A stretch of DNA of 64,000 nucleotides from Gillisella taibaishanensis (GTDB lineage Bacteria; Pseudomonadota; Alphaproteobacteria; Rhizobiales; Rhizobiaceae). The position numbers were made by a program, and so were the translations under genes. Below are positions 9,569 to 35,409 of this stretch, piece after piece. The number at the start of each line of letters is the position of its first letter. The stretch's first letter is position 1. Location of the stretch: contig NZ_MKIN01000015.1 of NCBI RefSeq assembly GCF_001938985.1, positions 1 to 64,000 on the forward strand, read 5' to 3'. The notes under the pieces were generated by a model. It saw only the letters and a list, made by a program, of their open reading frames with translations. It was not told the origin of the DNA and made no database searches.

Positions 9569-10138
9569 TCAGTCCTTGGCACGCTCGACATAGGAATTGT
9601 CTTCGGTAGCAATCACCACGCGGGTACCGGCATTGATATGCGGCGGCACCAGGGTGCGGATACCATTGGACAGAATGGCCGGCTTGTAGGACGAGGACGC
9701 AGTCTGGCCCTTGACGACCGGCTCCGTCTCGGTGATCTCAAGCGTGACGTGACGTGGCAGTTCGATGGACAGTGCCACACCTTCATGCATGGCGATGATG
9801 CAGGTCATGCCTTCCTGAAGATAGGACTTCTGATCGCCCATCGTATCGACGTCGACGACGATCTGGTCGTAGTTTTCAGGGTTCATGAAGTGGAAGCCTT
9901 CACCGTCCTCGTAGAGGAACTGATGATTGACGTCTTCCACGAAAGCGCGCTCGACCTGCTCGGTCGTGCGCCAGCGCTCCGACACCTTCACGCCGTCGAC
10001 GATGCGGCGCATGTCGATCTGGGTAACAGGCGTGCCCTTGCCGGGATGGAAGTTCTGCGCGGTGAGAACGACATAAAGCTTGCCGTCGACTTCGAGAACA
10101 TTGCCCTTGCGGACCGAAGAGGCGATGACCTTGACCAT
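9569..10138 (-). CDS. efp: Elongation factor P
   Basis: Translation factor that rescues ribosomes stalled at consecutive prolines. The 189-residue protein has the three EF-P beta-barrel domains, with [14 protein letters not shown] and the conserved loop PGKGTP placing the modified lysine at Lys34, exactly as in lysylated EF-P. The track of the longer frame begins nine codons upstream; I chose the ATG at 10138 because [13 protein letters not shown] aligns with the family N-terminus and gives the right numbering. It is divergent from epmA and epmB, the enzymes that install beta-lysine on this residue, which supports a lysylated form in this organism. Confidence 0.96.
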
Positions 10139-10296
10139 TCGGAATTCCTTGTATCTCTCAAACACACGTCGTAAAGGACGGCCGGCGGCCTTTTGACATG
10201 CTGTGGCTTTTCATGGGGCGCACCTAACCCAAATTTGCCCAAATAGCCAGCCCGTGTTGCAGCGGAATCGCCGCAACAGCCGAAAGAAGAGACGGA

Positions 10297-11370
10297 ATGA
10301 CAGGAAAGACCGAACAGCGCCTCTCCGCCTCTCCCTGGTGGACGCCAAGGGTGCATGCCGATCGCCGCCCCTTCCTGATCGGCCGCAACGCCATCCAGGC
10401 AGCGCTTCGGCTCTATTTCAGCCGCCACGACTTCCTCGAAGTCGACACGGCTGCCTTGCAGGTTTCCCCCGGCAACGAGGCGCATCTGCACGCCTTCGCC
10501 ACGACGGCCATTGGCAATGACGGCCAGCCCTTTCCGCTTTACCTGCACACCTCGCCGGAATTCGCCTGTAAGAAACTGCTGGCCGCCGGCGAGCCGAGGC
10601 TTGCCTGTTTTGCCCATGTCTATCGCAACCGCGAGCGCGGGCCGCTGCATCACCCCGAATTCACCATGCTCGAATGGTATCGTGCGGGTGAGGATTACGA
10701 GCGACTGATGGAGGATTGTGCAGCCCTTCTCGCGCTCGCTGCCGAAACGGCAGGTACAAGACAGTTCGCCTTCAACGGTGGGGTCTGCGATCCCTTCGCG
10801 CCGTTCGAACGGCTGAGCGTCGCCGATGCCTTCGAGCGCCATGCCGGCATCGACCTTCTGGGCAGCACATCCGCCAATGGCGAGACCGACCGCGACCATC
10901 TGGCCGCCGAACTGCGCCGGACCGGGATCCGCGTTGCCGATGACGACACCTGGGCCGATCTGTTCAGCCGGGTGATCGTCGAAAAAGTCGAGCTCCATCT
11001 TGGCTTCGAGCGCCCCACCATCCTCGATCGCTATCCGGTCGCCGAAGCCGCGCTCGCCCGGCCTGCCGTAGATGATCCGCGCGTTGCCGAACGCTTCGAG
11101 CTTTACGCCTGCGGCGTTGAACTCGCCAATGGCTTTGGCGAACTCACCGATCCGCAGGAGCAGCGCCGCCGCTTTCTGATGGAGATGGCTGAAAAGCAGC
11201 GCGTCTATGGCGAGACCTACCCGCTGGACGAGGATTTTTTGGCAGCGCTTGAAATCATGCCTCAAGCCTCAGGCATCGCGCTCGGCTTCGACCGCCTGGT
11301 TCTGCTCGCCACTGGTGCTCAGCGCATCGATCAGGTTCTGTGGACGCCGGTGGCGGAGCCGAACTCGTGA
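10297..11370 (+). CDS. epmA: EF-P lysine--lysyltransferase EpmA (GenX/PoxA)
   Basis: Attaches (R)-beta-lysine to Lys34 of EF-P. The 357-residue protein is a truncated class II lysyl-tRNA synthetase catalytic core without the N-terminal anticodon-binding domain. Class II motif 2 is visible as VYRNRERGPLHHPEFTMLEWY-like sequence around residues 108-128 and motif 3 as GIALGFDRLVLL near the C-terminus. At 357 residues it is a little longer than the ~325-residue E. coli protein. It diverges from efp across 158 bases and overlaps the downstream radical SAM gene by four bases, so epmA and epmB are translationally coupled. Confidence 0.93.
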   Translation: MTGKTEQRLSASPWWTPRVHADRRPFLIGRNAIQAALRLYFSRHDFLEVDTAALQVSPGNEAHLHAFATTAIGNDGQPFPLYLHTSPEFACKKLLAAGEPRLACFAHVYRNRERGPLHHPEFTMLEWYRAGEDYERLMEDCAALLALAAETAGTRQFAFNGGVCDPFAPFERLSVADAFERHAGIDLLGSTSANGETDRDHLAAELRRTGIRVADDDTWADLFSRVIVEKVELHLGFERPTILDRYPVAEAALARPAVDDPRVAERFELYACGVELANGFGELTDPQEQRRRFLMEMAEKQRVYGETYPLDEDFLAALEIMPQASGIALGFDRLVLLATGAQRIDQVLWTPVAEPNS

Positions 11371-12407
11371 GTGCCTCCGGCAAAACGCTGAAGAGTGTGG
11401 CCGAGTTGATCGAGACCGGCCTTGTCGCACCCAACGCCGTCGCTGATCTCGAAGCCGTCGCCCAGCGCTATGCCATCGCCATCACCCCTGCCATGCAGGT
11501 GCTGATCGACCACGACGATCCCAATGACCCCATCGCCGCCCAATTCGTGCCGACAGCGGAGGAACTGGTGCAGCGGCCCGAAGAGCGGGCCGATCCGATC
11601 GGTGATCACGCCCATAGCCCCGTCGAGGGCATTGTCCACCGCTACCCGGACCGCGTGCTGCTGAAGGCCGTGCATAGCTGCCCGGTCTATTGCCGCTTCT
11701 GCTTCCGCCGCGAAATGGTCGGCCCTGACGGCGACGGCACTCTGGCTGGCGAAGCGCTCGAAGCGGCACTTGCCTATATCAACGACAATTCCGAAATCTG
11801 GGAAGTGATCTTCACCGGCGGCGACCCACTGGTTCTGTCGCCTCGCCGGTTCCGCTCGATACTGGAACGCCTGGCCACGATGGAACACGTCAGGATCGTC
11901 AGGTTCCACACACGGGTGCCGGTTGCCGACCCGGCACGGGTAACGGCGGAACTGGTCGACGCCCTGCAAGCCAGCGGCAAGACGACCTATGTCGCCATTC
12001 ACGCCAACCATCCGCGCGAATTGACTGGAGATGCCAGGGCAGCGATCGACCGATTGCATGCGGCCGGCATCGCGCTGGTGAGCCAGACGGTGCTGCTGAA
12101 GGGCGTCAACGACGATGCCGCTATCCTTGCCGAGTTGATGCGGACCTTTGTCGAGTTGCGCATCCGGCCTTACTACCTGCATCACCCGGATCTTGCACCG
12201 GGCACCGGCCACTTCAGGCTGAGCATTACAGAGGGACAGGCCATCGCCGCGGCCCTGCACGGCCGGCTTTCCGGTCTCTGTCAGCCGACCTACGTACTGG
12301 ATATCCCAGGCGGCCATGGCAAGGCACCGATTGCAGCCGCAATGATCGAGCGTGATGGCGACAGGCATCGCGTTACCGACTTCAAAGGCCACATCCACGC
12401 TTATTGA
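11367..12407 (+). CDS. epmB: EF-P beta-lysylation protein EpmB (lysine 2,3-aminomutase-like radical SAM)
   Basis: Radical SAM enzyme that converts lysine to (R)-beta-lysine for EpmA. The CxxxCxxC iron-sulfur motif is present as CPVYCRFC at about residues 105-112, followed by FTGGDPL, a KamA-family signature. PLP and radical SAM regions span the 346 residues, a normal size for EpmB. An in-frame ATG lies upstream at 11340, but GTG 11367 overlaps the epmA stop as GTGA, a common coupling arrangement, so I prefer it. Together with efp and epmA this completes the beta-lysylation module; no EpmC-like hydroxylase gene is visible here. Confidence 0.9.
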   Translation: MSASGKTLKSVAELIETGLVAPNAVADLEAVAQRYAIAITPAMQVLIDHDDPNDPIAAQFVPTAEELVQRPEERADPIGDHAHSPVEGIVHRYPDRVLLKAVHSCPVYCRFCFRREMVGPDGDGTLAGEALEAALAYINDNSEIWEVIFTGGDPLVLSPRRFRSILERLATMEHVRIVRFHTRVPVADPARVTAELVDALQASGKTTYVAIHANHPRELTGDARAAIDRLHAAGIALVSQTVLLKGVNDDAAILAELMRTFVELRIRPYYLHHPDLAPGTGHFRLSITEGQAIAAALHGRLSGLCQPTYVLDIPGGHGKAPIAAAMIERDGDRHRVTDFKGHIHAY

Positions 12408-12644: not shown

Positions 12645-12896
12645 ATGAACGAGACCATTCGGACCATTCTAGGCAAAGTGGGCGGTCTGCCCGTCGATGC
12701 GGCGGGAATTGCTGCCGATGCCGACCTTTACGCTCTTGGATTGTCGTCTTTCGCATCGGTACAGCTGATGCTGGGCATCGAGGAAGCCTTCGATCTCGAA
12801 TTTCCCGATCATCTCCTCAATCGTAAATCCTTTGCCAGCATCGAGGCCATCGAACGCACGGTGCGCCAGATCCTGGAGGATCGGAAGGTCGCCTGA
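12645..12896 (+). CDS. Acyl carrier protein (predicted aminoacyl carrier protein)
   Basis: Small acidic carrier protein of 83 residues. The phosphopantetheine site reads LYALGLSSFASVQLM, with the probable modified serine at Ser35 (Ser34 is adjacent), a GLSS variant of the usual DSL motif. The gene overlaps the next one by a single base and leads a four-gene run with an acyl-CoA dehydrogenase-like protein, an amino acid:[carrier protein] ligase and a DUF1839 protein. In Bradyrhizobium and Agrobacterium the homologous ligase charges an adjacent small carrier protein with a small amino acid, so this is probably the acceptor rather than the fatty acid synthase ACP. Start follows a GTGAGGGGG-type ribosome binding site. 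Confidence 0.88.
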   Translation: MNETIRTILGKVGGLPVDAAGIAADADLYALGLSSFASVQLMLGIEEAFDLEFPDHLLNRKSFASIEAIERTVRQILEDRKVA

Positions 12897-14116
12897 TGAC
12901 CCTCACGGCCACCCAGACCCGAGAAACCACGCAGCCGACCGAAAACCGGCGCGTTGAGCCAGAAGATTTCGCAGCCCGCGCCGCCAGGGTTGCCGCTATC
13001 GCAGCCCAACATGCCGACGATGTCGACCGTGCCGGCCGTTTTCCGCGCGAGGCCGTCGATGCCCTGAAGGTCGAGCGGCTGCTCGGAATGCAGATCCCGG
13101 TCGAATTCGGTGGTGAAGGTGCCGGCTTTGCGGCCATCGCCGAGATTTGCACCACACTTAGCCAGGCCTGCGCGTCGAGCGCGATGATCTTTGCCATGCA
13201 TCACATCAAGTGCTCGAGCCTTGTCGAACATGCCGAGGGCAATGCCTGGCAGCGCGACTTCATGGCCAGGGTCGCGAGCGAACAATTGCTGCTCGGCTCG
13301 GCCACGACGGAAGGCGGTATTGGCGGCAATCTGCGCAATTCGATCTGCGCTATCGAAGTCGACGGCGATATCTGCCGACTGGAAAAAGACGCCACTGTCA
13401 TTTCCTATGGGTCGCAAGCCGATGCCATCCTGATCACGTCGCGCGCCCACAAGGACGCCGCTCCCTCCGATCAGGTGATGACTGTTTTCCTCAAGGGCCA
13501 ATACAGCCTGGAAAAGACCGTGGACTGGGATACGCTGGGCATGCGCGGCACCCGCTCCGACGGTTTTCTCTTCAAGGGTCAGGCGCCGACCACCCAGATC
13601 CTGCCAAAGCCTTTTGCTGAAATTGCCGCCCAGTCGATGCTGGCTGCCTCCCATATCCTGTGGAGCGGTGTCTGGTACGGTATCGCCGTCGATGCCGTGG
13701 CCCGCGCGCAGAGTTTCGTGCGCGCCGCTGCTCGCAAGAGCCAGGGTCAGATGCCGCCCGGCGCCCTACGTCTGGCGGAAACCGCCAATCAGCTGCAACT
13801 GGTCCGCTCCAACGTGGTGGCGGCACTGAAAGCCTATGAGGATGCCAAGCATGATGGCGACAAGCTGTCTTCCTTTGGCTTCTCGGTAACGATGAACAAT
13901 GTCAAACTCGCCTCCTCAGAGACGATCATCGACATCATCAACCAGGCTATGCTGATCTGCGGCATCATGGGCTACAAGAATGGCACGCCCTACAGCCTCG
14001 GCCGCCACCTGCGCGACGCGCATTCGGCCCGGCTGATGATTTCCAACGACCGCATTCTCGGCAACACCTCGACGATGTTGCTGGTTCACAAACTCGATAC
14101 ACGGCTGCTGGGGTAG
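12896..14116 (+). CDS. Acyl-CoA dehydrogenase-like flavoprotein (putative aminoacyl-carrier-protein oxidase)
   Basis: The 406-residue protein has the acyl-CoA dehydrogenase fold: an N-terminal helical domain, a middle beta domain (GSATTEGGIGGN, about residues 139-150, the FAD/substrate region) and a C-terminal four-helix domain. The usual C-terminal family signature is replaced by LRDAHSARLMISNDRILGN, so I cannot identify the standard catalytic glutamate. Relatives that oxidise amino acids tethered to carrier proteins, such as prolyl-PCP dehydrogenases, make oxidation of the aminoacyl thioester a reasonable guess, given the flanking carrier protein and ligase genes. Starts immediately at the carrier protein stop codon and lies three bases before the ligase gene. 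Confidence 0.78.
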   Translation: MTLTATQTRETTQPTENRRVEPEDFAARAARVAAIAAQHADDVDRAGRFPREAVDALKVERLLGMQIPVEFGGEGAGFAAIAEICTTLSQACASSAMIFAMHHIKCSSLVEHAEGNAWQRDFMARVASEQLLLGSATTEGGIGGNLRNSICAIEVDGDICRLEKDATVISYGSQADAILITSRAHKDAAPSDQVMTVFLKGQYSLEKTVDWDTLGMRGTRSDGFLFKGQAPTTQILPKPFAEIAAQSMLAASHILWSGVWYGIAVDAVARAQSFVRAAARKSQGQMPPGALRLAETANQLQLVRSNVVAALKAYEDAKHDGDKLSSFGFSVTMNNVKLASSETIIDIINQAMLICGIMGYKNGTPYSLGRHLRDAHSARLMISNDRILGNTSTMLLVHKLDTRLLG

Positions 14117-14119
14117 ACC

Positions 14120-15028
14120 ATGGACACGCAAACCAATTTTCTCGACCGGCTGTTCGATGCCGGCCTGCTGATCGATACCGGCGTCGAAGGTCTTTATGGC
14201 CGCAGCGGCCAGTTCGAAGAGGTTATTGCTTCCTTCGAACGGCTGATCGACCGGGTCGGTGGTGGCGATGGCGCCGAAGCCCTGCGCTTTCCGCCGGGCA
14301 TGAACCGCGCCTATTTCGAAACCAGCGGCTATATGAAGAGCTTCCCGCAGCTGGCCGGCACCGTTCACAGTTTCTGTGGCAACGAGCTTGACCATGTCAG
14401 CCTGCTGAAATGCATGGATGCCGACGAAGACTGGACCAAGGAGCAGAGGGCAACCGATATCGTTCTGACGCCGGCAGCCTGCTACCCGCTCTATCCGACG
14501 GTTGCCAAGCGCGGCCCGATTGCCAATTCCGGCGCCCTGTTCGACCTGCAATCCTATTGCTTCCGCCATGAACCTTCGACCGATCCTGCCCGCCAGCAGC
14601 TGTTTCGCATGCGCGAATATGTCTGCATGGGCACGGAAAAGCATGTCACCGATTTCCGCCAGAGCTGGATGGATCGCGGTTTGAAGATGATGGAAGAGGT
14701 CGGTCTTCCCGTCGAAATCGACATTGCCAATGATCCGTTCTTCGGCCGCGCCGGCAAGATGCTGGCCAACAATCAGCGCGACCAGAACCTGAAATTCGAA
14801 CTGCTGATCCCGATCACCTCCGTCGCCAAGCCTACGGCGTGCATGAGCTTCAACTATCATCAGGATGCGTTTGGCACCAAATGGGGCCTGAACCTCGAAG
14901 ACGGCTCCGTGGCGCACACGGCCTGCGTCGGTTTTGGCCTGGAGCGCATCGCGCTGGCGCTGTTCCACCACCACGGCCTCGACGTGAAGGCCTGGCCGGA
15001 AAAGGTGCGCAAGGCGCTCTGGGGCTGA
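14120..15028 (+). CDS. Amino acid:[carrier protein] ligase (class II aaRS-like)
   Basis: Homologue of the shortened seryl-tRNA synthetase-like enzymes described in Bradyrhizobium japonicum and Agrobacterium that activate a small amino acid (Gly or Ala) with ATP and load it on the phosphopantetheine of a carrier protein instead of tRNA. The 302-residue protein keeps class II catalytic elements: an arginine in the motif 2 region ([10 protein letters not shown]...RMREYVCMG, about residues 149-175) and motif 3-like [16 protein letters not shown] near 274-289. It lacks any tRNA-binding arm. Conserved Cys and Glu in the active-site region (TACVGFGLE) agree with the zinc-dependent SerRS branch. The adjacent carrier protein is its likely acceptor. 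Confidence 0.88.
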
Positions 15029-15038
15029 TCGTCAGGTG

Positions 15039-16010
15039 ATGACCGTACAAAGCGTTCTGCCGCTCGATCCGTCGGCCTACACGCCGCATGCCCTGCATGC
15101 AGCGGAACGGATGTGGCCGGAAACCAATTGCTATGTCGATCTGTGGATCGAAGTGCTCTCGGCGCTCGGCATAGCACCCGAAGCCATGCTTGGTTTTACC
15201 CTGACCCAGGATTTCGAGGGCGACCAGTTCACCTTCTTCAAGGTGCCGCTGGAGGATCTGGAAGCGCTCTACGGGATCAAGGTCACGGAACTGGCGATCT
15301 TCGACAGCGTCGAAGCCCATATCCGTGAGCAGATTGCCCGCGGCCGCCTCTGCCTTGTGGAAATGGACAGTTTCTACATGCCCGACACCCGTGGCGTCGG
15401 CTATCGCCAAGAGCATGGCAAGACCACCGTCGGCATCAACAGCCTCGATCTCGAAAACCGCCGGATGGACTATTTCCACAATGGCGGCTTCTTTTCGCTC
15501 GACGGTGCGGATTTCGACGGGCTGTTCCAGCACAACGCGCCTGACGGCTGGCCGCCCTTCCTGCCCTATACCGAGTTTGCGAAGTTCCCGGCTGAGCGGG
15601 TAGAAGATAACCATCTGCGCGGCACGGCCGAGCGGCTGCTGCGCTTCCATTTTGCCCGCCGCCCGAGCGAAAATCCGTTCGCGGGATTTGCCAACGTGTT
15701 TCCGCAGCAGGTGGAGGCGGTGGCGGAGCGGGATTTCAGCTACTTCCACAAATACGCCTTCAACACGCTTCGCCAGTTCGGAGCGAATTTCGAGCTCCTC
15801 GCCAGCCATCTCCTGTGGCTTGGCGGCGATAAACGCTTTGGCGACGAGATCGCCCAGGCACTGCGCCTGTCGGAACTGGCGAAGACCGTGCAGTTCCAAC
15901 TGGCCCGCGCCGTCACACGCAAGAAATTCGAGCCGTTGAAAACCGCGATCGATCCCGCTATCGACGCTTGGGACAGGCTGATGGCGGGGCTTTCGTCAAA
16001 GATTGAATAG
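15039..16010 (+). CDS. DUF1839 family protein
   Basis: A 323-residue protein of a family without assigned function. I recognise the family from segments such as ERMWPETNCYVDLWIE, GFTLTQDFEGDQFTFFK and VEMDSFYMPDTRGVGYR, the last with an acidic/tyrosine-rich look that suggests an enzyme active site. No signal peptide or membrane helix is visible. It follows the ligase gene by ten bases and is the fourth gene of the carrier-protein operon, so it may act on or release the aminoacyl group; this is inference. A GTG directly upstream (15036) is an alternative start; AGGTG just before the ATG could serve as ribosome binding site. Confidence 0.75.
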   Translation: MTVQSVLPLDPSAYTPHALHAAERMWPETNCYVDLWIEVLSALGIAPEAMLGFTLTQDFEGDQFTFFKVPLEDLEALYGIKVTELAIFDSVEAHIREQIARGRLCLVEMDSFYMPDTRGVGYRQEHGKTTVGINSLDLENRRMDYFHNGGFFSLDGADFDGLFQHNAPDGWPPFLPYTEFAKFPAERVEDNHLRGTAERLLRFHFARRPSENPFAGFANVFPQQVEAVAERDFSYFHKYAFNTLRQFGANFELLASHLLWLGGDKRFGDEIAQALRLSELAKTVQFQLARAVTRKKFEPLKTAIDPAIDAWDRLMAGLSSKIE

Positions 16011-16105: not shown

Positions 16106-18553
16106 ATGATCACCTATCTCGATGCCGATATCCGCCCGCTCGAAGCCGGCTGGACCTTGCTGGTGACGGAACCAGACACCTATGACAGCCCGAAAAGCCT
16201 GCATCGCGCCAGCGCCCGCATTCACGCCCCCGTTCCCGGCACCACAGCAGAAGCGCTGACCAAGGCCGGGCTGTTCGATCCGGAAAAGCCGACACCATTG
16301 CATGGCAAGGATGTCTGGTATCTGCGTCCCCTGACCGGCGAAAAGCCGGGACCCGCCGTGATCAGGTTCGAAGGACTGGCAACCGTCGCCGAGGTGTATC
16401 TCAACGATACGCTGATCCTGAGCTCCGACAGCATGTTCGAAAGCCATGACGTGGCCGTGAACCTTGATGGCACGGAACAGTTGACGATCTGCTTTCGCGC
16501 CCTTCAGCCCCATCTGGACAAACGGGGTCCCCGCGCACGCTGGCGGCCGCAGATGATGACCTCGCAGGGCCTGCGGCTGGTGCGGACGACGCCACTGGGC
16601 CACATGCCCGGCTGGTGCCCCGACATCCATGCCGTCGGTCCCTACCGGCCCATCAGCCTGATCCGCCCTGGTGCGGTCGCCATTGCAGATCTTCGTCTGC
16701 GCGCCGATCTCGAGGAGGACGGCACCGGCCTTTTGGACATTGCCTTTAGCCTCGGCACCGTCGTTTCCCAAGTTACTCTCAGCTGCGCTGGTCAAAGCCT
16801 CGACCTCACACCGGGCGCAGACGGCCGGGTGAAGGGCCGCCTCACCATTCCAGGCGTGGCGCCATGGTGGCCACGCACCCATGGAAAACCTGTTCTGCAC
16901 GACGTGCGCCTGACGCTGGATGGGAAATCCTATTCGCTCGGCCTCACCGGCTTTCGCCGCATCCGCATCAATACTGGCACCGATGGCCGGGATTTCTCGG
17001 TTATCGTCAACGGCACGCCGATTTTCTGCCGGGGTGCCGTCTGGACCAATGCCGACATCGTCAGCCTGCCCGGCTCGGCCGAGGATTACGCGCCCTGGCT
17101 GACGCTTGCGGCCAATGCGGGCATGAACATGATCCGCATCGGCGGCACCATGACCTATGAAAGCGCCGATTTCTTCAGGCTCTGCGACCGGCTGGGGCTG
17201 ATGGTCTGGCAGGATGTAATCCTCGCCAATTTCGACTACCCGGCCAGCGACGAGGCCTTTACCAACCATCTCAGCCGCGAAATCGAGCAATTCCTGACAG
17301 CCAATCAGGCCTCGCCATCGCTCGCCATCCTCTGCGGCGGCAGTGAGGTCTATCAGCAGGGTGCCATGCTGGGCTTGGCCGAGACCGCCTGGAAAGGTCC
17401 GCTGTTCACCAGCCTCCTGCCCGAACTCTGCGCCCGCTTTGCACCTACCCTGCCCTATGTCGAGAATTCGCCGATGGGCGGTGCGATGCCCTTTGCGCCG
17501 AATACCGGTGTCACCCATTACTATGGCGTCGGCGCCTATTGCCGGCCGCTCGAAGATGCACGCCGCGCAGGCGTCCGCTTTGCGGCCGAGTGCTTGGCCT
17601 TTGCCCATGTGCCGCAACAGTCGGTGCTGGACAAGCATCTGACCGTGCCGCCGGTCCATGACCCGCGCTGGAAAGCCCGCGTGCCACGCGACCGGGGCGC
17701 TTCCTGGGATTTCGAGGATATCCGCGACCACTACCTCGCCCTCCTCTACGATCTCGACCCCGCCCGGCTGCGCCGCGAGGACCCAACCCGTTACCTGCAC
17801 CTGTCGCGGGCGGTGACGTGCGAAGTTCTGGAAGAAACTTTTGCCGAATGGCGTCGTCCCGGCTCATCCTGCCATGGCGCGCTGGTCTGGACCTTTCAGG
17901 ACCTCGCTGTTGGCCCTGGCTGGGGGCTGGTCGATGCGACGGGAGAGCCAAAACCGGTCTGGTATGCTGCACGCCGCGCCTTCAACCCGATCCGCGTCGC
18001 CATGACCGATGAGGGCACCAACGGGCTCGACATCCATCTCTGCAATGATAGCGCGGACGAGCGAACCCTGACCCTCGACCTCAGCTGTCTGCGCGACGGC
18101 AAAACGCCGGTTGTGGCAGCGCAGCGCGCGGTCGCCCTTGCGGGCAGCTCACACACCAGCCTGCAAGCCACGGACCTGTTCGGCGCCTTCTTCGACACCA
18201 CCTATGCCTTCCGCTTCGGCCCGCCCGCCCATGACGTGACGGTAGCAACGTTGAGCGATCCGCAAACCGGGGAGGTTGTCAGCCAGGCCTTTTATTTCCC
18301 CCAGGGCCGCGCCAGGGCTATGCAAGATGCGGACATCAGGGTCGCCGTCGCGCAAGGCGACAAGGGCTGGTATCTGGAGCTTGAAGCCGATCGGCTGGCG
18401 CAATCGGTGCATATTGCGCTGGATGAGGGCCGCGCCACCGATGATTTCTTCCATCTGGCGCCCGGCTTTCCCAGGCAAATCCGCTTGCTCACGTCGAGCA
18501 AGCCCGGCGGCGAGGTGCTGACGGCCTCATCATCCAGACGCTTCCGCTTCTGA
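16106..18553 (+). CDS. Glycoside hydrolase family 2 protein (beta-mannosidase-like)
   Basis: An 815-residue cytosolic enzyme with the GH2 domain order: N-terminal sugar-binding jelly-roll (VIRFEGLATVAEVYLNDTLI, about residues 86-105), immunoglobulin-like domain, then a TIM barrel. In the barrel, MIRIGGTMTYESADFFRLCDRLGLMVWQD is the typical family segment; LCGGSEVYQQ corresponds to the acid/base loop (Glu in place of the usual NE dipeptide context) and RFAAECLAF to the nucleophile strand. The overall pattern resembles beta-mannosidases more than beta-galactosidases. No secretion signal is visible. It follows the carrier-protein operon in the same direction after 95 bases with a strong AAGGAG site. 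Whether it belongs to that pathway or to the nearby polysaccharide locus is open. Confidence 0.82.
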   Translation: MITYLDADIRPLEAGWTLLVTEPDTYDSPKSLHRASARIHAPVPGTTAEALTKAGLFDPEKPTPLHGKDVWYLRPLTGEKPGPAVIRFEGLATVAEVYLNDTLILSSDSMFESHDVAVNLDGTEQLTICFRALQPHLDKRGPRARWRPQMMTSQGLRLVRTTPLGHMPGWCPDIHAVGPYRPISLIRPGAVAIADLRLRADLEEDGTGLLDIAFSLGTVVSQVTLSCAGQSLDLTPGADGRVKGRLTIPGVAPWWPRTHGKPVLHDVRLTLDGKSYSLGLTGFRRIRINTGTDGRDFSVIVNGTPIFCRGAVWTNADIVSLPGSAEDYAPWLTLAANAGMNMIRIGGTMTYESADFFRLCDRLGLMVWQDVILANFDYPASDEAFTNHLSREIEQFLTANQASPSLAILCGGSEVYQQGAMLGLAETAWKGPLFTSLLPELCARFAPTLPYVENSPMGGAMPFAPNTGVTHYYGVGAYCRPLEDARRAGVRFAAECLAFAHVPQQSVLDKHLTVPPVHDPRWKARVPRDRGASWDFEDIRDHYLALLYDLDPARLRREDPTRYLHLSRAVTCEVLEETFAEWRRPGSSCHGALVWTFQDLAVGPGWGLVDATGEPKPVWYAARRAFNPIRVAMTDEGTNGLDIHLCNDSADERTLTLDLSCLRDGKTPVVAAQRAVALAGSSHTSLQATDLFGAFFDTTYAFRFGPPAHDVTVATLSDPQTGEVVSQAFYFPQGRARAMQDADIRVAVAQGDKGWYLELEADRLAQSVHIALDEGRATDDFFHLAPGFPRQIRLLTSSKPGGEVLTASSSRRFRF

Positions 18554-18597: not shown

Positions 18598-20460
18598 TTA
18601 CTCTTTTGAGGTTCCCCGGAAGATCGAACGCGCGGCCGCGACCGAGCGCACCAGATTGCAAATTTCCTCGAAATAGCGCTGCTGGGCAGCGGGTGGCGAG
18701 AAATTGTGATCGGTCTCCGGGAGAATATCCATCGTCACATTAGGGTAGTGCGCCAGCTTTGCGCCATCAGAGCCGAAATGCTGATAGACGTGATCAAGCC
18801 CAACATCGTGCTCGCTATAAAGCAGGACCAGCGGCGTCTTGCGCTTGGCAAGCCCGGTAAAAGCGACGCGGACCGCCCGGCGTTCAAGCCGCGCTTCGCG
18901 GCTGAAGGCATGGCTGAGGCCAAGCCGGTTGAGAGCCCGACGAGCACCAACGATTGCGAAATTACGCACGGCATTTTTCACGTCGACATCACCGCGCATC
19001 ATCCGCCGCAGGGTCTGCACCTGGAATAACCGGTGCGTATAGGTGTCAAGCGAACGTGGCACAACGGCAAGGCTGTCCTCCACCTTCCGTCTCGGATCCC
19101 AATAGAACACGAAGGGATTGGCAAGGCAGGCACCGGCAATCCGGTGGTCCTTGATCAGGCAGGAAAAGGCGAGATAGCCGCCGCTGCACCGCCCGGCTGC
19201 AACGCAAGGCAGCAGCATCCGCTCTTCAAGCACGGCAAGGGCCGCCTCGACATCGTCATATTGGGTTTCGGCATAGAGAACCTGGTCCGGCAGATCAGGA
19301 ACCGGAGGACTGTCGCCGACATTGGCCACGTCGAAGCGCAGCGAGGCAATGCCTTCGCCCGCCAGGCGCCGCGCCATCTCTACTCCGGAACGGCCCCATC
19401 CGGAGCTGCGGTCATAGGCCGTGTTAAGCAGCAATACACTTGCCCCCAACCGTATTCCCGCAGGCTCGCAGAGGATGCCATAAAGCCGCTTGCCACGACC
19501 GAACCGCAGGGCAGTCTCGCGGAAGCCGGCTTGTTCGAGCACGGCCTCATCCCGCTCGCGGTTGTCCGCGTCTTCGCCCGGCACTAGCCGCACCTGTTCG
19601 CCAAGGGCTGCTGCACGGCGTACAATCCAGCTGATGACGTTTTCCGCCGCCGCCATAGGCATCCGCGCCATGGCGGGATTGCCGACCAGCGCGTCATAAC
19701 CATGATAATCGATCATCTCGACGCGGGCGCCTTTCGCCTCGATCTGCTCGGCCATCTGCCTGTCGCCGGGTCGGTCGACCCTGTTGACGAAGAGATGCGG
19801 AATCGAGCGATGCGGCTGCACGGACGCGAAATCGGTTTTCTTCAGCGCCGCAGCCTTGGCCTCCGGCAGGACATGACCAGCGATGGCGGTAACGCCGCTT
19901 GGCCGCAAATGCTCGGCAAGGCCGAGACCGTCATCGATCACCCGCGCCCAAAACTGCAATTCCCTGAGATAAGCGCGACCAGACGCGACAGGCGCCATTG
20001 CGACCAGACCCACGAGATCTTCGATTTCGGCCGCGAGGCTGACACCCAGCGAAGCGCCAAGCCCATGCCCCAGCAAAATCACCGGTAGGCCGCCGGTTTT
20101 TTGACGAAGCACGTCCACCGCCGTTTTGATCGTCTCCTGCCAGGGCGACAGGTCTTGCTCATAGCTTGTCGTGTCCAGCGCATCGCCGGTACCGGGATAG
20201 TCAAAGCGCAGGCTGGCAATGCCTTCGCAGGCTAGTTCCTCTGCAATAATTCGGAAAAGCTTATGGGTGCACATTTCCTCAAAGCCCCAAGGCTGAAGAA
20301 ACAGCACCGAACACTTGCGCACCGCCGTCGGCTTTGGCCCCTCGGCTGGCTGGAAAAGCCCGAAGGTGCCGGCAAAGCTGACCGGCTGGGCCACGGCGCG
20401 CTGGCGCGACTTAAGTCGCTCGCCAGACACGGGGCCTATCCGCTCGGTTATCGCTTCCAT
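18598..20460 (-). CDS. Tandem-domain alpha/beta hydrolase of the polysaccharide locus
   Basis: About 620 residues made of two alpha/beta hydrolase domains. The repeat is visible in IASLRFDYPGTGDA (81-94) and IASLRFDVANVGDS (371-384). The nucleophile elbows differ: GHGLG (131-135) has Gly instead of Ser, and GRCSG (423-427) has Cys. The C-terminal domain ends with a plausible catalytic His in ETDHNFS. The two halves resemble the pair of small hydrolases often encoded next to exopolysaccharide/exosortase loci, here fused. It is the last gene of the minus-strand glycosyltransferase-flippase run. The ATG at 20460 has a GGAAGG ribosome binding site; an upstream in-frame ATG at 20508 does not. A role in acyl-group trimming of the polymer is possible. 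Confidence 0.75.
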   Translation of the reverse strand: MEAITERIGPVSGERLKSRQRAVAQPVSFAGTFGLFQPAEGPKPTAVRKCSVLFLQPWGFEEMCTHKLFRIIAEELACEGIASLRFDYPGTGDALDTTSYEQDLSPWQETIKTAVDVLRQKTGGLPVILLGHGLGASLGVSLAAEIEDLVGLVAMAPVASGRAYLRELQFWARVIDDGLGLAEHLRPSGVTAIAGHVLPEAKAAALKKTDFASVQPHRSIPHLFVNRVDRPGDRQMAEQIEAKGARVEMIDYHGYDALVGNPAMARMPMAAAENVISWIVRRAAALGEQVRLVPGEDADNRERDEAVLEQAGFRETALRFGRGKRLYGILCEPAGIRLGASVLLLNTAYDRSSGWGRSGVEMARRLAGEGIASLRFDVANVGDSPPVPDLPDQVLYAETQYDDVEAALAVLEERMLLPCVAAGRCSGGYLAFSCLIKDHRIAGACLANPFVFYWDPRRKVEDSLAVVPRSLDTYTHRLFQVQTLRRMMRGDVDVKNAVRNFAIVGARRALNRLGLSHAFSREARLERRAVRVAFTGLAKRKTPLVLLYSEHDVGLDHVYQHFGSDGAKLAHYPNVTMDILPETDHNFSPPAAQQRYFEEICNLVRSVAAARSIFRGTSKE

Positions 20461-20590
20461 CCACCTTCCCTTTCCTGCCTCTCGGCCTTTCCCAGATGGC
20501 GCTTCCATAAATCTCGGATCCGTCGTTGGCCTCGAGATAATTATCCGGCATTCACGTTAACCACAGGCACTAGCGCACCCTGCCGCTTCG

Positions 20591-22114
20591 CTAGTCCGCT
20601 TCCTTCGGTATTCCCGTTAACATCAGCAACACGGCATCAAGCGGTGCGGCAAGCCAGCTTGGCAGCCGGGCAATGAACCCTTCCATCACCTTGACATCCG
20701 CCTTCGGCACCGCCCGCAACACGCGCAGCGCCAACCCGTAAACACCGGCTGCGCCAACAATTGCCAACGCCAGACCGGGAATGCCGGGTACCACCTCCTG
20801 CACGGCCAAGGCCGCCAGGGCACAACAACCCGACGCCAGCAGCACTTTCAACAGGCTGCGTCCCAATGGCGCCAGCGAACCTTCGAACCGCATCCAGCGC
20901 AGCATCGCCAGACTCATAGCCGTAAATACGATAATTCGCACAAAAGCCGCACCCTCGCCGCCGTAAGCAGGAACGAGCAATACATCCCCAGCCAGCATGA
21001 TCAAGGCCCCGCCCAGCCCTACGAACAGACGCTCCCGAATTTTGTCGATAGCAAACAAATATTGTGTCGCAACCTGACATGCAACGGCAACCGGCACAGA
21101 CAGGGCAAGCAGCGTCAACATGGAGGCGCTGGGCGCAAAAGCATCCCCGAACACCAGCGTCACAAGCCGATGGGAAATCACCGCCAGGCCAAGGCTCATC
21201 GGCAGGGTGAAATAGGCAAGACTGCGCACGACGCTTTCGAACATCTCGACTGGAAGCCGCTTGCCGGGGGCGCGATGCAGATGTTCCGCATAATACGGCA
21301 CGAGACTGCCCGACAGCTGGATGGGCACCTGCAAGGCAAGATTGGTCAGCGAGAATGCGACCGCGTAGTAGCCAACGGTTTCGATCCCGTGGTAGCGCTG
21401 CAGGAAGAACAGCTCGATCCGGTTGAGAAAGATCGAGTCGATCATGAATTCAAGCGAGAGTAAGAAAGAGGAGTTGACGAGATAGCGGAAGCCGATGCCG
21501 CAGGTCTTCACCTTGTGGCGCAACAGCGCCACCGCGAACATGAATTGTGAGATATAGGCCAGCACATAGCCAAACAGCGCACCGGGCACGCCGAAGAGCA
21601 AGGTGCCAGCGACAACCCCAATCAGCTGCAACAAGCCGGCGGTCAACGTCATCCGGAAGAAGATATCGACCCGCTGCTCGCCGATCAGATAATTCTTAGC
21701 AAACATGCCGATAGCCTGGGTGGCAAACAGCATGGCCGTCACCACAAGCACGGTCGGCGCCGTTTCTGCCCAATGTTTGGCTTCGGCCACCCAGAAAAAC
21801 AGGAAATAGAAGGTCAAAAACAGCGCTGTCGAGCCGATCACCGGCCATAGCAGATAGGCTGCAAAGCCCTTGCGATCGCGCTCGTCGAAGCCCTGTCCTT
21901 TCAGCTGCGGCAAGAGACGCAACAGCAGCACGCCGGTGCCGAGCTCCGCGACCAGTGCCGCGGTCGATGCGAGCCAGATTGAAAAGGCGATGATACCATT
22001 GGCTTCAGGGCCAAGCATGCGGGCGGTGAAGATAGAGCACAGGAAACCCGTCGCCAACAGGGTAAGCCCTGCAGCCGCATTGAAGGCGGAATTTGCGACG
22101 ATTCCATTGCTCAT
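20591..22114 (-). CDS. Polysaccharide flippase (Wzx/MATE-like oligosaccharide flippase)
   Basis: A 507-residue integral membrane protein with about 12-14 hydrophobic helices, consistent with the MOP superfamily flippases that move lipid-linked sugar repeat units across the inner membrane. The N-terminal stretch (NGIVANSAFNAAAGL, then FLCSIFTARMLGPEANG) is typical of polysaccharide biosynthesis proteins of this group. It lies between a GumK-like glycosyltransferase and the tandem hydrolase on the minus strand. A Wzy-like polymerase and a chain-length protein are encoded on the other side of the divergent promoter region, so the locus has the parts of a Wzx/Wzy pathway. Confidence 0.87.
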   Translation of the reverse strand: MSNGIVANSAFNAAAGLTLLATGFLCSIFTARMLGPEANGIIAFSIWLASTAALVAELGTGVLLLRLLPQLKGQGFDERDRKGFAAYLLWPVIGSTALFLTFYFLFFWVAEAKHWAETAPTVLVVTAMLFATQAIGMFAKNYLIGEQRVDIFFRMTLTAGLLQLIGVVAGTLLFGVPGALFGYVLAYISQFMFAVALLRHKVKTCGIGFRYLVNSSFLLSLEFMIDSIFLNRIELFFLQRYHGIETVGYYAVAFSLTNLALQVPIQLSGSLVPYYAEHLHRAPGKRLPVEMFESVVRSLAYFTLPMSLGLAVISHRLVTLVFGDAFAPSASMLTLLALSVPVAVACQVATQYLFAIDKIRERLFVGLGGALIMLAGDVLLVPAYGGEGAAFVRIIVFTAMSLAMLRWMRFEGSLAPLGRSLLKVLLASGCCALAALAVQEVVPGIPGLALAIVGAAGVYGLALRVLRAVPKADVKVMEGFIARLPSWLAAPLDAVLLMLTGIPKEAD

Positions 22115-22194
22115 TGATCAGTCATACCCTTTATACTCACTCTGTTCCCGGCACCTGCCGTGGCGTTCATCGATTACTGGCAGCCTTGAACCGG

Positions 22195-23325
22195 CTATGG
22201 AAACAATGCATCGACGGTCTCGTTCCAACTTAGAACACCATCGGTTGCGATCGTCTTACGATCGTAGGTGCCTGCTTTTAAAAAAGCTGCGCGGATCGAT
22301 CCCGGATCGGCGGGATCGTAACCCAGGACATGATCGCGACCGGCGGCCGCAAACTGCGGGGCAACAATCGGCAACCGGCAATAGCTGTACTGGATCATCT
22401 TCAAACTGGATTGACTGAGATAATCGGCTCGCGCGCCGTCGCGGTAGGGTGCAATGCCGAGATCGGCGAATTTGATCAAGGGCACGATCCGCCCGAACGG
22501 CTGCTCCCCATGCGCGACGATATTGGCCCGCGCCTGCCTCGGCTCCGCCTTGGCGCCGAACAGATGAAACGTCCAATCGGGATTAGCTGCCGCCATGACG
22601 TCGATGGCATCGGCGTCAAATAACATATCTCCGACGCTGACGGCATGCTTGCCGGAACCGTATCTACCATCACGGTAAGGGTTGTCAGTAGCCGCGTCGA
22701 AAGCCGCCTTGTCGATACCATGCGGCAGGTAGAAAAGCGGCGCATCCGGCGGAAAATCCAAGGCCAGCGCCTGCGCGAGAATATGGACCCGGTCGTAAAG
22801 TCCGAGATTGTCCAGGAGCATGCGCTCGGCGGCTGGCGGCACGCCAATAGTCGAGAGCCGGTCGGCGGCGTGATAGACGATCTGCGCTTTGGGCGCATGG
22901 CGGCGAAGAACAGGCGTCAACAGTGGCGACGGGCCGCTTTCGACGAGAATATGGCTGTAGGCGCCCAGGTCCCGCCGCACAGCATTGGGCAAGAATGCGC
23001 CAATGCGCGCGAACATTGGATCGGCAAGACGGTTGAGAAATGACCGTTTCAGGTTCATGGGATGAAACAGCTGGAACCAGATGAACTGCCTGAGGTTGCT
23101 GCCAAGATCCTGCCAGCGGTTGAGCACATGCTGCTTGGCAAACGCGTAGCGGCCATCCTTCAGGAAACGGCTGATCGGGCTCAGCCGCCAGACCAGGAAA
23201 TCCACCCGATCACCGCGCGAGATGAGACTATCGGCCATGAAATGCAGATCGACCTTGCGGGGCGCATCGGCGAAATGCTGGCCGGTTACGATCAGAACCT
23301 GACGGCGGGACGCGGTCGCGCTCAT
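22195..23325 (-). CDS. GumK-like glycosyltransferase (family GT70)
   Basis: A 376-residue glycosyltransferase. Several segments parallel GumK, the glucuronosyltransferase of xanthan synthesis: QHFADAPRKVDLHFMADSL near the N-terminus, IVYHAADRLSTIGV, LPHGIDKAAF, AVSVGDMLFDADA and the C-terminal donor-side region LGIAPYRDGARADYLSQSSLKMIQY. GT-B fold, expected to act at the cytoplasmic face of the membrane on a lipid-linked oligosaccharide. By analogy it may add glucuronic acid to mannose, but the acceptor here is unknown. Its start overlaps the end of the upstream GT4 gene by four bases (ATGA). Confidence 0.78.
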   Translation of the reverse strand: MSATASRRQVLIVTGQHFADAPRKVDLHFMADSLISRGDRVDFLVWRLSPISRFLKDGRYAFAKQHVLNRWQDLGSNLRQFIWFQLFHPMNLKRSFLNRLADPMFARIGAFLPNAVRRDLGAYSHILVESGPSPLLTPVLRRHAPKAQIVYHAADRLSTIGVPPAAERMLLDNLGLYDRVHILAQALALDFPPDAPLFYLPHGIDKAAFDAATDNPYRDGRYGSGKHAVSVGDMLFDADAIDVMAAANPDWTFHLFGAKAEPRQARANIVAHGEQPFGRIVPLIKFADLGIAPYRDGARADYLSQSSLKMIQYSYCRLPIVAPQFAAAGRDHVLGYDPADPGSIRAAFLKAGTYDRKTIATDGVLSWNETVDALFP

Positions 23326-24515
23326 GCGGTCGCCTCTCGGCGACAGGAACGCGCCGTAGGGAGCGCGCGGCGATAGAGCGCGATATAGCGATCCGCCACG
23401 CCTTCCCAGGAATAACGACCGACTTCACCGATCAGGCCACGGCGCAGATCGTTGCCGCTGGCGCTGAGCTTGGCGAAGGCAGCCTCAACGGCTTGCGCGG
23501 CAGCGGGTGGATTGGAAAAATCGGCAAGTTCAATGGCCGGATGCTGGGCGGCGAGTGCGCGATAAGCCTCGTTTTCGTGCAGGACAGGCAGCAAGCCGGC
23601 ACTCATCGCCTCGACGGCGACCAAGCCGAAGCCTTCGTAATCGGAGGCGGAGACGAACAGCGAGGCCTTCTCCATCAACCGACCGAGCAGCTGATTGTCG
23701 GGTTGCAGATGCAGGCTGACGTGATCGGCGAGCCCCTGCGTCGCAATGAGCCCACGGACATCTTCAGCCGAGAGGTCCGAGGGTGAGCCGGCGATATCGA
23801 GCCGCCACTGCGGATCATTTTTAACCAGCACGGCCATCGTCCGCAGCAATTGCTCGAGCCGCTTATTAACCGAAAAACGGCCGATCGTCAGCATGCGCTT
23901 GACCGGCTGGCGCGAGGCCATGCCGGTGAATTTGCTGGTGTCTACGCCGTTCTCGATCAGCACCGAGCGTTTCGGCGCAATGGTCCGGAAGGTCTCCAGA
24001 TCAGATGCGCTGCAACAAACCACGGATCGGTAGGCGCTGGCCGAAAACCGGGTGAGCGTCTGGAACCAGATCTTCTTGATCGCCGCAAATTTGCGCGTAT
24101 GGAAAAAGCCGCCATGGGTGGTCGCGATCATCGGCGCGCCGTGCAGAAAGCGGCCGATGGCCAGCGCATCGAAGAAGAAGTCGACGCCATGAACGTGAAT
24201 AAGATCGGCATCGCCAAGATGGCGGAAGACGGAAAACGCTAGGGGGTACCGGCTGCTGCCGTGATAGGGGATCCTGACCACTTCGACGCCATCGACGACT
24301 TCCCGCGCCGGCAAAGACGTTTCGGGATCGGAAAATAGCCGGTCGAGCGTGACGACCCGCACTCGAAAGCCGCGCTTCAGCAAGTGTCGGCTGAGGCTTG
24401 AGACCACGTCTTCCAGCCCGCCGCGACCCGGCGGATATTGCCGGACCACCTGGACGACCAAAGGTGCGGTTGAGGCACCTGCCTCCGCTGCCGCTCTCTT
24501 TGCGCCGATGATCAT
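23322..24515 (-). CDS. Glycosyltransferase family 4
   Basis: A 397-residue GT-B glycosyltransferase. The N-terminal glycine-rich strand (RQYPPGRGGLEDVVSSLSRHLLKRG) and the C-terminal E-x7-E donor-binding motif in DYEGFGLVAVEAMSAG identify family GT4. It is the first gene of the minus-strand polysaccharide operon, transcribed away from the chain-length protein gene across a gap of about 290 bases that presumably holds both promoters. Several TTAAC-containing boxes lie there, but I cannot assign a regulator. The donor sugar cannot be read from the sequence. Confidence 0.88.
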   Translation of the reverse strand: MIIGAKRAAAEAGASTAPLVVQVVRQYPPGRGGLEDVVSSLSRHLLKRGFRVRVVTLDRLFSDPETSLPAREVVDGVEVVRIPYHGSSRYPLAFSVFRHLGDADLIHVHGVDFFFDALAIGRFLHGAPMIATTHGGFFHTRKFAAIKKIWFQTLTRFSASAYRSVVCCSASDLETFRTIAPKRSVLIENGVDTSKFTGMASRQPVKRMLTIGRFSVNKRLEQLLRTMAVLVKNDPQWRLDIAGSPSDLSAEDVRGLIATQGLADHVSLHLQPDNQLLGRLMEKASLFVSASDYEGFGLVAVEAMSAGLLPVLHENEAYRALAAQHPAIELADFSNPPAAAQAVEAAFAKLSASGNDLRRGLIGEVGRYSWEGVADRYIALYRRALPTARSCRREATA

Positions 24516-24807
24516 CCCAACACCCCTGTTTTAAACGGGAAAAACCTGAAATTTCTTGTCATTTGGTTAGAATGAGTTGAAAGCGTGGTAAAGCTTCTTG
24601 TGCATAAATGACCTATCCTTGCACAAACGCGGTAAAGAATCGTGATTAACAGGCCAAATTGTTAGGTATCATTAACCATAGCCTGCCATTTTGAGCTGCC
24701 GAATACCTCCTGAACGGTTAACAAGGCCCAGAGTTTCGGCCTTATGGCCAACCAGGGAAGACGAAGCCTCTCGGAAGGACCACCAGCTGGACGCTACGGT
24801 CCTGGAC

Positions 24808-26970: not shown

Positions 26971-28289
26971 CGGCTGCGGCCACACAGGTGTCCGAGCACG
27001 GCGAGAACGTAGCGGACGACACCGGTACAGAACCCGGCCATTTCCTGCCCGAAGGGCTGGTCCACGCAGTGGCCTCTTTTGCCGTGATCGGCGGGCTGCT
27101 GCTCAATCTTTTCCTGTGCTTCGTCAACACAAGGATCATGCCGGTCAGCGACACCCATGTCATGCTGGGCGAAATGACAATGTTGGGCTCAGCCTTTCTT
27201 CTGGCCGTCGACCGGCGCCCCGGTCTCTACCTGACCCTGCTTCTCTTCGTCAGTTACATGCTGATGATCTTTGCCCTGCGCGGCGCGCTGGATCTGAAGG
27301 CGCTGCGCGACGTATTCATTCCGGTCGGCTTCTATTTCATGGGCAAGCGCGTCGCCCGCGTCGGCCTGGCCGACCGGCTGGTGATCGTCTGCGGCCTGAT
27401 CGTACTGGTCGTGGCGCTTTACGAATATCTGGCGCTGGAGAGCTACCTCGATTACTTCAACGTGCTCGGCTATTACATCGCCCGCGGCACCGTCACCCTG
27501 CAGGAAAGCTTCGGCCAGACCCGCGGCCTGTTCATTTCCGGCCTGAGGCCCGAGCCGCGCACGCTGCTGCCGTTTCTAGGCCAGCACCGCGTCTCCTCGG
27601 TGTTTCTCGAACCTGTTTCGGCCGGCAATTTCGGCGTCATCTTGTTTGCCTGGGCACTGTTTCGCCCCACCATGCCCTGGCGGCTAATCGTGATTGCCAT
27701 GGCGCTGACGGGCATCGTGCTGGCCGATGCGCGTTTCGGCTTTTTCACCTGCGTGGTGATTACAGGGCTGTTGCCGGTCTACCGCTTCATCCCGAAAACC
27801 GTCTGGCTGGTAGCGCCGTTTATTCTTTTGGCCGTGATCGCCGCCTATGGGCTGATCGTCGGCGCAGAAGGTGGCGCTAACGACGTCTCCGGCCGCCTGA
27901 AAGTCACCGCCGCCATTCTCAACCATTTGGATCTGCAGGTGGTGCTGGGGTCAAAGACCACGGATCAATTCACCGCCGATTCCGGGATTTCCTATACGCT
28001 GACCAATTTCGGCCTGTTCGGCTTTGTCGGTCTCTGGGCCGCCTTCGTGCTGTCACCGATGCAGGACGCCAAGGCCTGGGCTTTCAGGGGCATGATGGTG
28101 GTTTACCTCCTGCTGCTGATGCTGATTTCCAATTCCTTCTACTCCATCAAGACAGCAGCCCTGATGTGGTTCCTGATCGGCACCGCCGACGCTGTGGATT
28201 GGACCGGTTTTGCAGCAAGAGGTCTAAAGCTTCAGCGATTGCGCAAGGACGGGCAATCGGAAGCCGAAGCGGAGAAATCGCGCAGGTAA
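26967..28289 (+). CDS. O-antigen ligase/polymerase-like membrane protein (Wzy)
   Basis: A 440-residue membrane protein with roughly ten hydrophobic helices and a large central periplasmic loop (about residues 160-215, rich in Arg and Glu), the layout of Wzy polymerases and WaaL-type ligases. It overlaps the chain-length protein gene by four bases (ATGA), which argues for a polymerase working with that protein. It has a long polar tail. Its 3' end overlaps the end of the convergent GH5 gene by 58 bases. Confidence 0.78.
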   Translation: MTAAATQVSEHGENVADDTGTEPGHFLPEGLVHAVASFAVIGGLLLNLFLCFVNTRIMPVSDTHVMLGEMTMLGSAFLLAVDRRPGLYLTLLLFVSYMLMIFALRGALDLKALRDVFIPVGFYFMGKRVARVGLADRLVIVCGLIVLVVALYEYLALESYLDYFNVLGYYIARGTVTLQESFGQTRGLFISGLRPEPRTLLPFLGQHRVSSVFLEPVSAGNFGVILFAWALFRPTMPWRLIVIAMALTGIVLADARFGFFTCVVITGLLPVYRFIPKTVWLVAPFILLAVIAAYGLIVGAEGGANDVSGRLKVTAAILNHLDLQVVLGSKTTDQFTADSGISYTLTNFGLFGFVGLWAAFVLSPMQDAKAWAFRGMMVVYLLLLMLISNSFYSIKTAALMWFLIGTADAVDWTGFAARGLKLQRLRKDGQSEAEAEKSRR

Positions 28290-29335: not shown

Positions 29336-29773
29336 GCGCCTGTCCTCGTTTGTAATGTCATTGCAGAACAGGCGCCTTACCTCTCTGCACACCAAGCAAC
29401 CAATAGAAGCCATCCGCCTGTTGCACAGAGCCGGAAACTCTCAACAGCGCCGCATAACTTATCCGTTAAATCCCAAGGGATAACAGCAGAAAACTGCGAT
29501 TCGACATTTTACGAAATGCGGCGCTTTAAGACGCAGGCAGACCAGCCTTTGTTCCGCGAACCCGGCAGCTTAGCACGCAGCACCCCTTGCCTCTTTTCCT
29601 TAGAGGAAAAATAGTTTACCAGAACTTCCAGCGATCCCTAGAGATCTACCGGGATTGACAATGGATTATGCATCATAAATCAGAAGGCGAGACAACCCGC
29701 TTGTTGCACAGGTGCTGGTTTAACGGGTGCGGCACCGAGCGGCTCCCATATTGGAAGATGAGAGGAAGACGAG
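29336..29773. other. Gene-free stretch between the GH5 gene and purU
   Basis: About 440 bases that should hold the divergent promoters of the GH5 gene (minus) and purU (plus). TTGACA at 29655 is a plausible -35 box for purU, followed by AT-rich sequence around 29676, but no clean -10 box. A purine-rich GAGAGGAAG precedes the purU start. I find no RNA gene and no strong repeat here. Confidence 0.4.
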
Positions 29774-35299: not shown

Positions 35300-35409
35300 G
35301 AATCACCTCGTTCGTTGTGGACCGCCATCTCTTTGGGAGCGGCCCCAGGGGCCGGGTCAAGCGCCTTTTCGCCCTACACTTCCCGCAAGCTTCGCCCTAT
35401 TTTAGCTCT

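Follow-up and report, generated by a model that had tools for sequence, protein, structure and literature searches.

Our analysis of a 64,000-nucleotide stretch of the Gillisella taibaishanensis genome (contig NZ_MKIN01000015.1, positions 1 to 64,000; the window) suggests that a gene cassette beginning at position 12,645 probably converts a small amino acid, once oxidised, into an amide or, less likely, an ester, a reading that we hold with some confidence though well short of certainty. By analogy, its chemistry appears to be much like that of lincosamide antibiotic assembly, with an acceptor that is perhaps an amino sugar. The cassette appears to be a fixed set of five to six genes, found in soil bacteria and in plant- or host-associated bacteria. 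Four of them, at 12645-16010 and all on the + strand, are nearly contiguous: the carrier protein and flavoprotein genes overlap by 1 base, 3 bases separate the flavoprotein and ligase genes, and 7 bases separate the ligase and DUF1839 genes. Open reading frame (ORF) coordinates and family matches confirm these four genes, which an original prediction from the sequence alone had picked out; that prediction missed the GH2 glycosidase gene at 16106-18553, which belongs to the unit, and the alpha/beta-hydrolase gene. The features are as follows.

12645..12896, + strand: aminoacyl carrier protein, 83 amino acids; NF005480, 114.6 bits (cut-off 72), and PF00550; putative phosphopantetheine site, by motif, Ser35 in GLSSF
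12896..14116, + strand: flavoprotein of acyl-CoA dehydrogenase (ACAD) fold, 406 amino acids; PF02771/PF00441; usual catalytic Glu absent, conserved MI-x-NDR instead
14120..15028, + strand: amino acid:[carrier protein] ligase, class II seryl-tRNA-synthetase-like, 302 amino acids; NF005479, 522.4 bits (cut-off 357)
15036..16010, + strand: DUF1839 protein, predicted papain-like aminoacyl-carrier-protein:amine amide synthase, 324 amino acids, GTG start; PF08893, 443 bits (cut-off 22.5)
16106..18553, + strand: GH2 beta-mannosidase-like glycosidase, 815 amino acids; PF22666/PF17753; beta-mannosidase match in the Protein Data Bank (PDB), 1.6e-46
18598..20508, - strand (opposite strand here): two-domain alpha/beta-hydrolase, associated gene; PF12146/PF12697; TIGR03100/03101 below cut-off

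We propose a pathway of four steps. First, as orthology supports, the ligase would activate Ala or Gly with ATP and load it onto the phosphopantetheine of the carrier protein. Second, the flavoprotein might oxidise the tethered aminoacyl group, oxygenation being tentatively favoured. Third, the aminoacyl group would pass to Cys32 of the DUF1839 protein and from there to an amine, most simply that of an amino sugar, in a CcbD-like ping-pong reaction. Fourth, to judge by their motifs, the GH2 protein would trim or remodel the sugar-containing acceptor or product and, where it is present, the Cys-type alpha/beta-hydrolase would release or edit a thioester. Gene content, conservation and fold similarity were observed directly; all reactions that follow loading are inferred, as is loading in the case of these particular proteins.

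The purpose of amino acid:[carrier protein] ligases has been open since 2010, and section 12 of PMC9437257 still says that their role 'remains unknown', in keeping with the original prediction of an aminoacyl-carrier-protein pathway of unknown product. Neither the cluster nor the general amide idea is new, since both are in a 2010 note in proof (PMC2922099), which places a carrier, a redox enzyme, the conserved protein Atu2574 and a glycosidase around the ligase and predicts that Atu2574 forms an amide on a cell-surface sugar and that the redox enzyme oxygenates the amino acid. The original prediction had called the downstream chemistry not established; this stands insofar as a literature search by locus names and DUF1839 found no test of the steps after loading or of the 2010 prediction, while the idea itself was already in that note in proof. 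Searching for the ligase with Bradyrhizobium returned no paper, and searching for carrier protein ligases returned mostly papers on DltA. Excerpts of other sources list bll0957/bll0958 among the genes up in a phaR mutant and Atu2573 as a network hub gene. As far as we know, the novel points are the support from structure for amide formation, the division of the ligases into two clades that have exchanged receivers, the association with the hydrolase, the altered GH2 active site, the flavoprotein's lack of the Glu and the pairing of degenerate with intact DUF1839 copies. The link between the DUF1839 and CcbD folds gives a concrete reaction, an order of enzymes and a testable residue, Cys32, and the accompanying GH2 gene hints at a sugar.

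The DUF1839 fold and the proposed amide-forming step

The model of the DUF1839 protein matches CcbD and CtaG, with the same two-domain fold over the full length. CcbD is an amide-forming enzyme for which a ping-pong mechanism has been described, and CtaG makes amides. This match between a model and known structures backs the role of transferring or releasing enzyme that had originally been suggested for DUF1839. Taking the best copy at each locus, C32 is present in 111 of 112 proteins, T130 in 110 of 112 (with one Ser) and H148 in all 112; when both copies at locus L174 are counted, the Cys is absent from 2 of 113. Within the predicted triad the Cys is kept, while the His and the third residue appear to be swapped (T130, H148) relative to a Cys-His-acid arrangement, and the same swap is modelled in a portion of PMC10318531. 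It is on the full-length fold and these conserved residues that the proposed transfer to an amine is based. H127 was considered as the catalytic His instead of H148 and rejected, on the weak argument that it is Ala in the Methylobacterium copy.

In L172/L136 and L174/L137 (with L119, L120) and in L204, a DUF1839 protein without the catalytic Cys lies in the operon and a second, intact DUF1839 protein is found in the same genome. By analogy, such pairs recall the two-protein complex of AziU2 and AziU3.

The comparison with known systems shows both likeness and difference. In the lincosamide system, CcbD/LmbD works with the carrier domain of CcbZ/LmbN, where a stand-alone adenylation (A) domain stands in place of the aminoacyl-tRNA-synthetase-like ligase of the cassette; CcbD has Cys-His-Glu where DUF1839 has C-T-H; and the cassette adds a flavoprotein and a glycosidase and has no amino sugar pathway in its fixed unit. 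CtaG (closthioamide) and AziU3/U2 (azinomycin) are 11-15% identical to DUF1839 and act on different substrates. The papain-like BtrH of butirosin biosynthesis takes acyl groups off a carrier protein and attaches them to an aminoglycoside, according to part of PMC10318531; BtrH is not among the 50 structural matches listed for DUF1839, which excludes nothing.

Several observations weigh against our reading. Sequence identity between DUF1839 and CcbD/CtaG is 10-15%, and a profile search of PDB sequences with DUF1839 missed both, its best match (E 0.037) being unrelated. A shared fold is no proof of a shared reaction, the C32/T130/H148 triad is itself a prediction, and AziU3/U2, with the same fold, serve in different, aziridine chemistry. 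For the flavoprotein, the fold scores against monooxygenases and dehydrogenases are almost tied. No amino sugar synthesis gene is part of the fixed unit, and no polysaccharide operon is evident within about 9 kb of the cassette at four annotated plasmid loci, for which the gene table is incomplete. In a tally of the flanks of 20 distant loci, which covered 87 ORFs, just one family, the alpha/beta-hydrolases with 10 ORFs, occurs in more than three, and the sugar-related families among the 25 listed match one or two ORFs each.

Could DUF1839 instead be a thioesterase or ring-forming enzyme that frees the modified amino acid as a small signal or antimetabolite, with GH2 activating or detoxifying its glycoside? 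The fold includes AziU3/U2, and the unit is self-contained on several plasmids, both of which speak for this possibility. However, amides are the products of CcbD and CtaG, the nearest structures whose reactions are known, and a large glycosidase, present at 31 of 32 loci, speaks for a partner that contains a sugar. We consider release of a free amino acid improbable and continue to prefer transfer to an amine.

A conserved gene set and two ligase clades

Whole-genome searches recovered DUF1839 from 8 of 387 genomes in the class sample and from 20 of 397 in the phylum sample, or 25 different genomes. With about 1.5 kb on each side of DUF1839 covered, all 25 have the ligase and flavoprotein beside one DUF1839 copy and 24 have GH2; two of the 27 copies, both second copies in their genomes, are without the ligase beside them. 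The co-occurrence of DUF1839 with ligase and flavoprotein is thus far above chance. In the order sample, 104 of 397 genomes have a member of the ligase family, and 97 of these score over the cut-off.

Translated searches (tblastn) at the named loci, which are the best 80 of 586 with a DUF1839 alignment, found the ligase and GH2 at all 80, the flavoprotein at 79 and the carrier at 78. By title, these loci belong to Rhizobiaceae or Rhizobiales, except for Brucella pecoris (L083) and the metagenome-assembled genomes (MAGs) labelled 'Arenimonas' (L026) and 'Proteobacteria' (L027, L028). L071 and L020 are cut by contig ends. The one true exception is L088 (R. leguminosarum Vaf-46, a whole contig of 6451 bases), which has a full DUF1839, residues 140-302 only of the ligase and a short piece of GH2, with neither carrier nor flavoprotein; it is a broken or misassembled cassette.

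DUF1839 occurs in Rhizobium, Agrobacterium, Shinella, Azospirillum, Mycetohabitans, Caballeronia, Cupriavidus, Burkholderia and Methylobacterium. It is also found on 59 plasmid records, of which 12 are predicted to be conjugative, 7 mobilizable and 40 non-mobilizable, and root nodules, insects or Rhizopus-associated Mycetohabitans are the source of several among the 30 such records listed. The cassette may therefore move on plasmids.

For a closer comparison, 52 regions of at most 19 kb were chosen from ligase and DUF1839 matches; three hold only distant ligase relatives, leaving 49. At the 32 loci with DUF1839 (type A), carrier, flavoprotein and ligase are always present and GH2 is missing from L175 alone, lying within 0.75 kb of DUF1839 except in L145 (2.6 kb; in L174 the distance is that to the second DUF1839 copy). 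The remaining 17 loci (type B) have flavoprotein and ligase, without the DUF1839, GH2 or hydrolase of the cassette, and with a carrier-like protein at 11, 15 or 16 loci depending on the method. Whether the four genes are always together, as the original prediction asked, thus has a two-sided answer: DUF1839 comes with the others, whereas flavoprotein and ligase occur without DUF1839 within about 8 kb at 17 of the 49 loci. In a ligase tree of 50 rows the two types separate fully (support 100/100), with the window ligase in clade A.

The Bradyrhizobium bll0957 type falls within type B: the match of the L156 ligase to the bll0957 chain scores 727 bits. Recurrent genes of type B encode a protein without a Pfam match that we label GNAT-like from a reading of its sequence (10 of 17 loci), an AMP-binding ligase (10), a second carrier-like protein (10), a short-chain dehydrogenase/reductase (SDR; 9) and an alpha/beta-hydrolase (7). 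The GNAT-like protein is near the ligase in L156, L161-L165, L180, L182, L183 and L187, directly adjoining it in L156, L180 and L182. This protein, often with the second carrier, AMP-binding ligase and SDR, is possibly an alternative receiver. We read the two types as one donor module, which loads and oxidises, coupled to two alternative receivers.

Proposed loading and oxidation of the amino acid

The carrier protein finds its best PDB matches in 4h2w_C and 2jq4 'Atu2571', with 58 of 82 aligned residues identical, compared with E 4.9e-7 for 4h2s 'Aminoacyl carrier protein 1'. The NF005479 match spans residues 3-302 of the 302 of the ligase, a class II core with no tRNA-binding domain. Among PDB entries the ligase matches 3mey and 4h2w (E 3.1e-98), the latter better than native bll0957; a segment of 14 residues is identical to chain 4h2w, where native bll0957 has GRVGQMKAVSQKQQ. 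We take 4h2w to be an engineered chimera with the Agrobacterium carrier-recognition helix. The cassette carrier protein is an Atu2571 orthologue, and the ligase carries an Agrobacterium-type carrier-recognition segment.

Passages of PMC5370406 describe the ligase family as loading Gly or Ala. Residues C121, E166 and C269 are near-invariant in types A and B alike. Just ahead of C269 the types differ: 108 of 112 type A ligases have Ala there, and 14 of 17 type B ligases have Gly. By homology, C121, E166 and C269 are presumably the Zn ligands. Loading of the carrier protein with Gly or Ala by the ligase is well supported by sequence, and because of the orthology to the Atu2571 pair and the Agrobacterium-type segment it is very probably this carrier that is charged, as originally proposed. 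The Bradyrhizobium bll0957 and Agrobacterium Atu2571-Atu2573 pair shares the ligase family, the orthologous carrier and the 14-residue segment of 4h2w with the cassette; as far as we found, loading is the sole step studied there. Fatty acid or acyl-CoA metabolism was rejected as a reading, since carrier and ligase belong to specific amino acid:[carrier protein] families.

What happens to the loaded amino acid is suggested by the flavoprotein. The catalytic Glu of the YEG-type motif is absent from the window protein and from the aligned proteins of type A (11) and of type B (9); it is kept in paralogues L190 and L193 and absent from paralogues L195 and L197 as well, three further paralogue ORFs being truncated or in a wrong frame. 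Nor is there a Glu at the position of the alternative, IVD-type site, in a region that aligns poorly. The flavoprotein model is narrowly closest to flavin monooxygenases (group D, DszC/KijD3 type), with dehydrogenase folds close behind. The missing Glu and the fold neighbours favour oxygenation over ordinary desaturation, and we tentatively suggest that the flavoprotein oxygenates the tethered aminoacyl group, for example by N-hydroxylation. The original assignment to an ACAD-like family thus holds, while oxidation to an imine or enamine now seems less supported. The carrier-tethered amino acid dehydrogenases ColB1 and PltE/RedW differ in that the cassette flavoprotein lacks the ordinary catalytic Glu and scores 34.5 bits against the RedW family cut-off of 650.

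It is possible, though we think it unlikely, that the flavoprotein works as a genuine dehydrogenase whose base is an unusual residue such as Asp385, converting alanyl to dehydroalanyl or oxidising N-Calpha to an imine, and that DUF1839 transfers or hydrolyses the unsaturated product, in line with the original prediction. The Glu missing from the window protein and the 20 aligned, yet kept in two paralogues, counts against this. Moreover, the related Bradyrhizobium-type ligase loads glycine, which has no beta carbon and so cannot be desaturated at Calpha-Cbeta.

The glycosidase, a possible sugar link and the surroundings of the cassette

Both catalytic Glu residues of GH2, aligned to beta-mannosidase 2vjx, are invariant (E414 and E495, each 108 of 108). 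The residue before the acid/base Glu, position 413, is Ser in 107 of 108 and Asn in one (L139), and 2vjx has Asn. In clan GH-A this Asn is a hallmark that contacts the sugar 2-OH; its replacement by Ser413 leads us to infer a substrate modified at C2. The associated hydrolase has GxCSG in its second domain, with Cys441 replacing the Ser that is usual as nucleophile; there Cys441, Asp568 and His601 are kept in at least 95% of 66 relatives; its first domain has neither Ser nor Cys at the usual nucleophile position in the 40 sequences printed. Its gene is near 16 of 32 type A, 50 of the 80 named and none of the 17 type B loci. In Mycetohabitans rhizoxinica pBRH01 and Azospirillum pAB510e it immediately follows GH2.

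In the window, genes for a flippase, a GumK-type protein, a GT4 protein and a Wzz-type protein follow at 20591-26967, part of an exopolysaccharide-type stretch (20591-29413) that also holds an ORF without a Pfam match and a GH5 cellulase-family gene. Might the cassette then decorate a cell-surface polysaccharide by joining an amino acid in amide linkage to an amino sugar of exopolysaccharide or lipopolysaccharide, as predicted in 2010 for Atu2574? Besides this downstream stretch, GT4, Wzz, Wzy-like or GH5 relatives lie near the cassette at several distant loci, the Mycetohabitans plasmid locus holds an acyltransferase gene and an LTA-synthase-family gene (the latter also favouring a surface role), and the note in proof of PMC2922099 and part of PMC10318531, which proposes glycan processing at the cell wall, point the same way. 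On the other hand, the plasmid cassettes of Azospirillum, Caballeronia and R. leguminosarum are without annotated polysaccharide operons within about 9 kb (in the incomplete gene table), sugar-related families are few in the flank tally, and GH2, judged by eye, has no obvious signal peptide. We regard surface decoration as a serious alternative, if clearly the less probable one; a tight, general tie to polysaccharide operons finds no support in the flank tally or the plasmid loci.

Amide formation on a sugar could also be part of a second, unrelated lincosamide-like lineage, in which a class II aminoacyl-tRNA-synthetase relative replaces the A domain, the carrier is free, a flavoenzyme N-hydroxylates or oxygenates Gly or Ala, Cys32 of DUF1839 passes it to an amino sugar, and the GH2 with Ser413 is adapted to a C2-modified sugar. 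This extension is speculative and we rate it as doubtful. If true, the aminoacyl-glycoside compounds or glycan marks so formed in plant- and host-associated proteobacteria would constitute a new class.

Family scans of 18 window ORFs found no non-ribosomal peptide synthetase or polyketide synthase among them, in agreement with the original prediction. Directly upstream of the cassette (9569-12407) lie ORFs read as efp, epmA and epmB, of which only epmB was scanned (radical-SAM/LAM-type). Similar ORFs are directly upstream in many Rhizobiaceae loci too; since they were not found beside the cassette in distant loci, they are probably mere neighbours. Farther downstream, a 974-residue protein (30946-33870) combines a kinase domain of the APH family with a class III aminotransferase domain, and successive genes at 34268-38039 encode a regulator of MerR type that carries an AAA domain, a protein weakly matching the metallo-beta-lactamase fold and an ATP-dependent DNA ligase.

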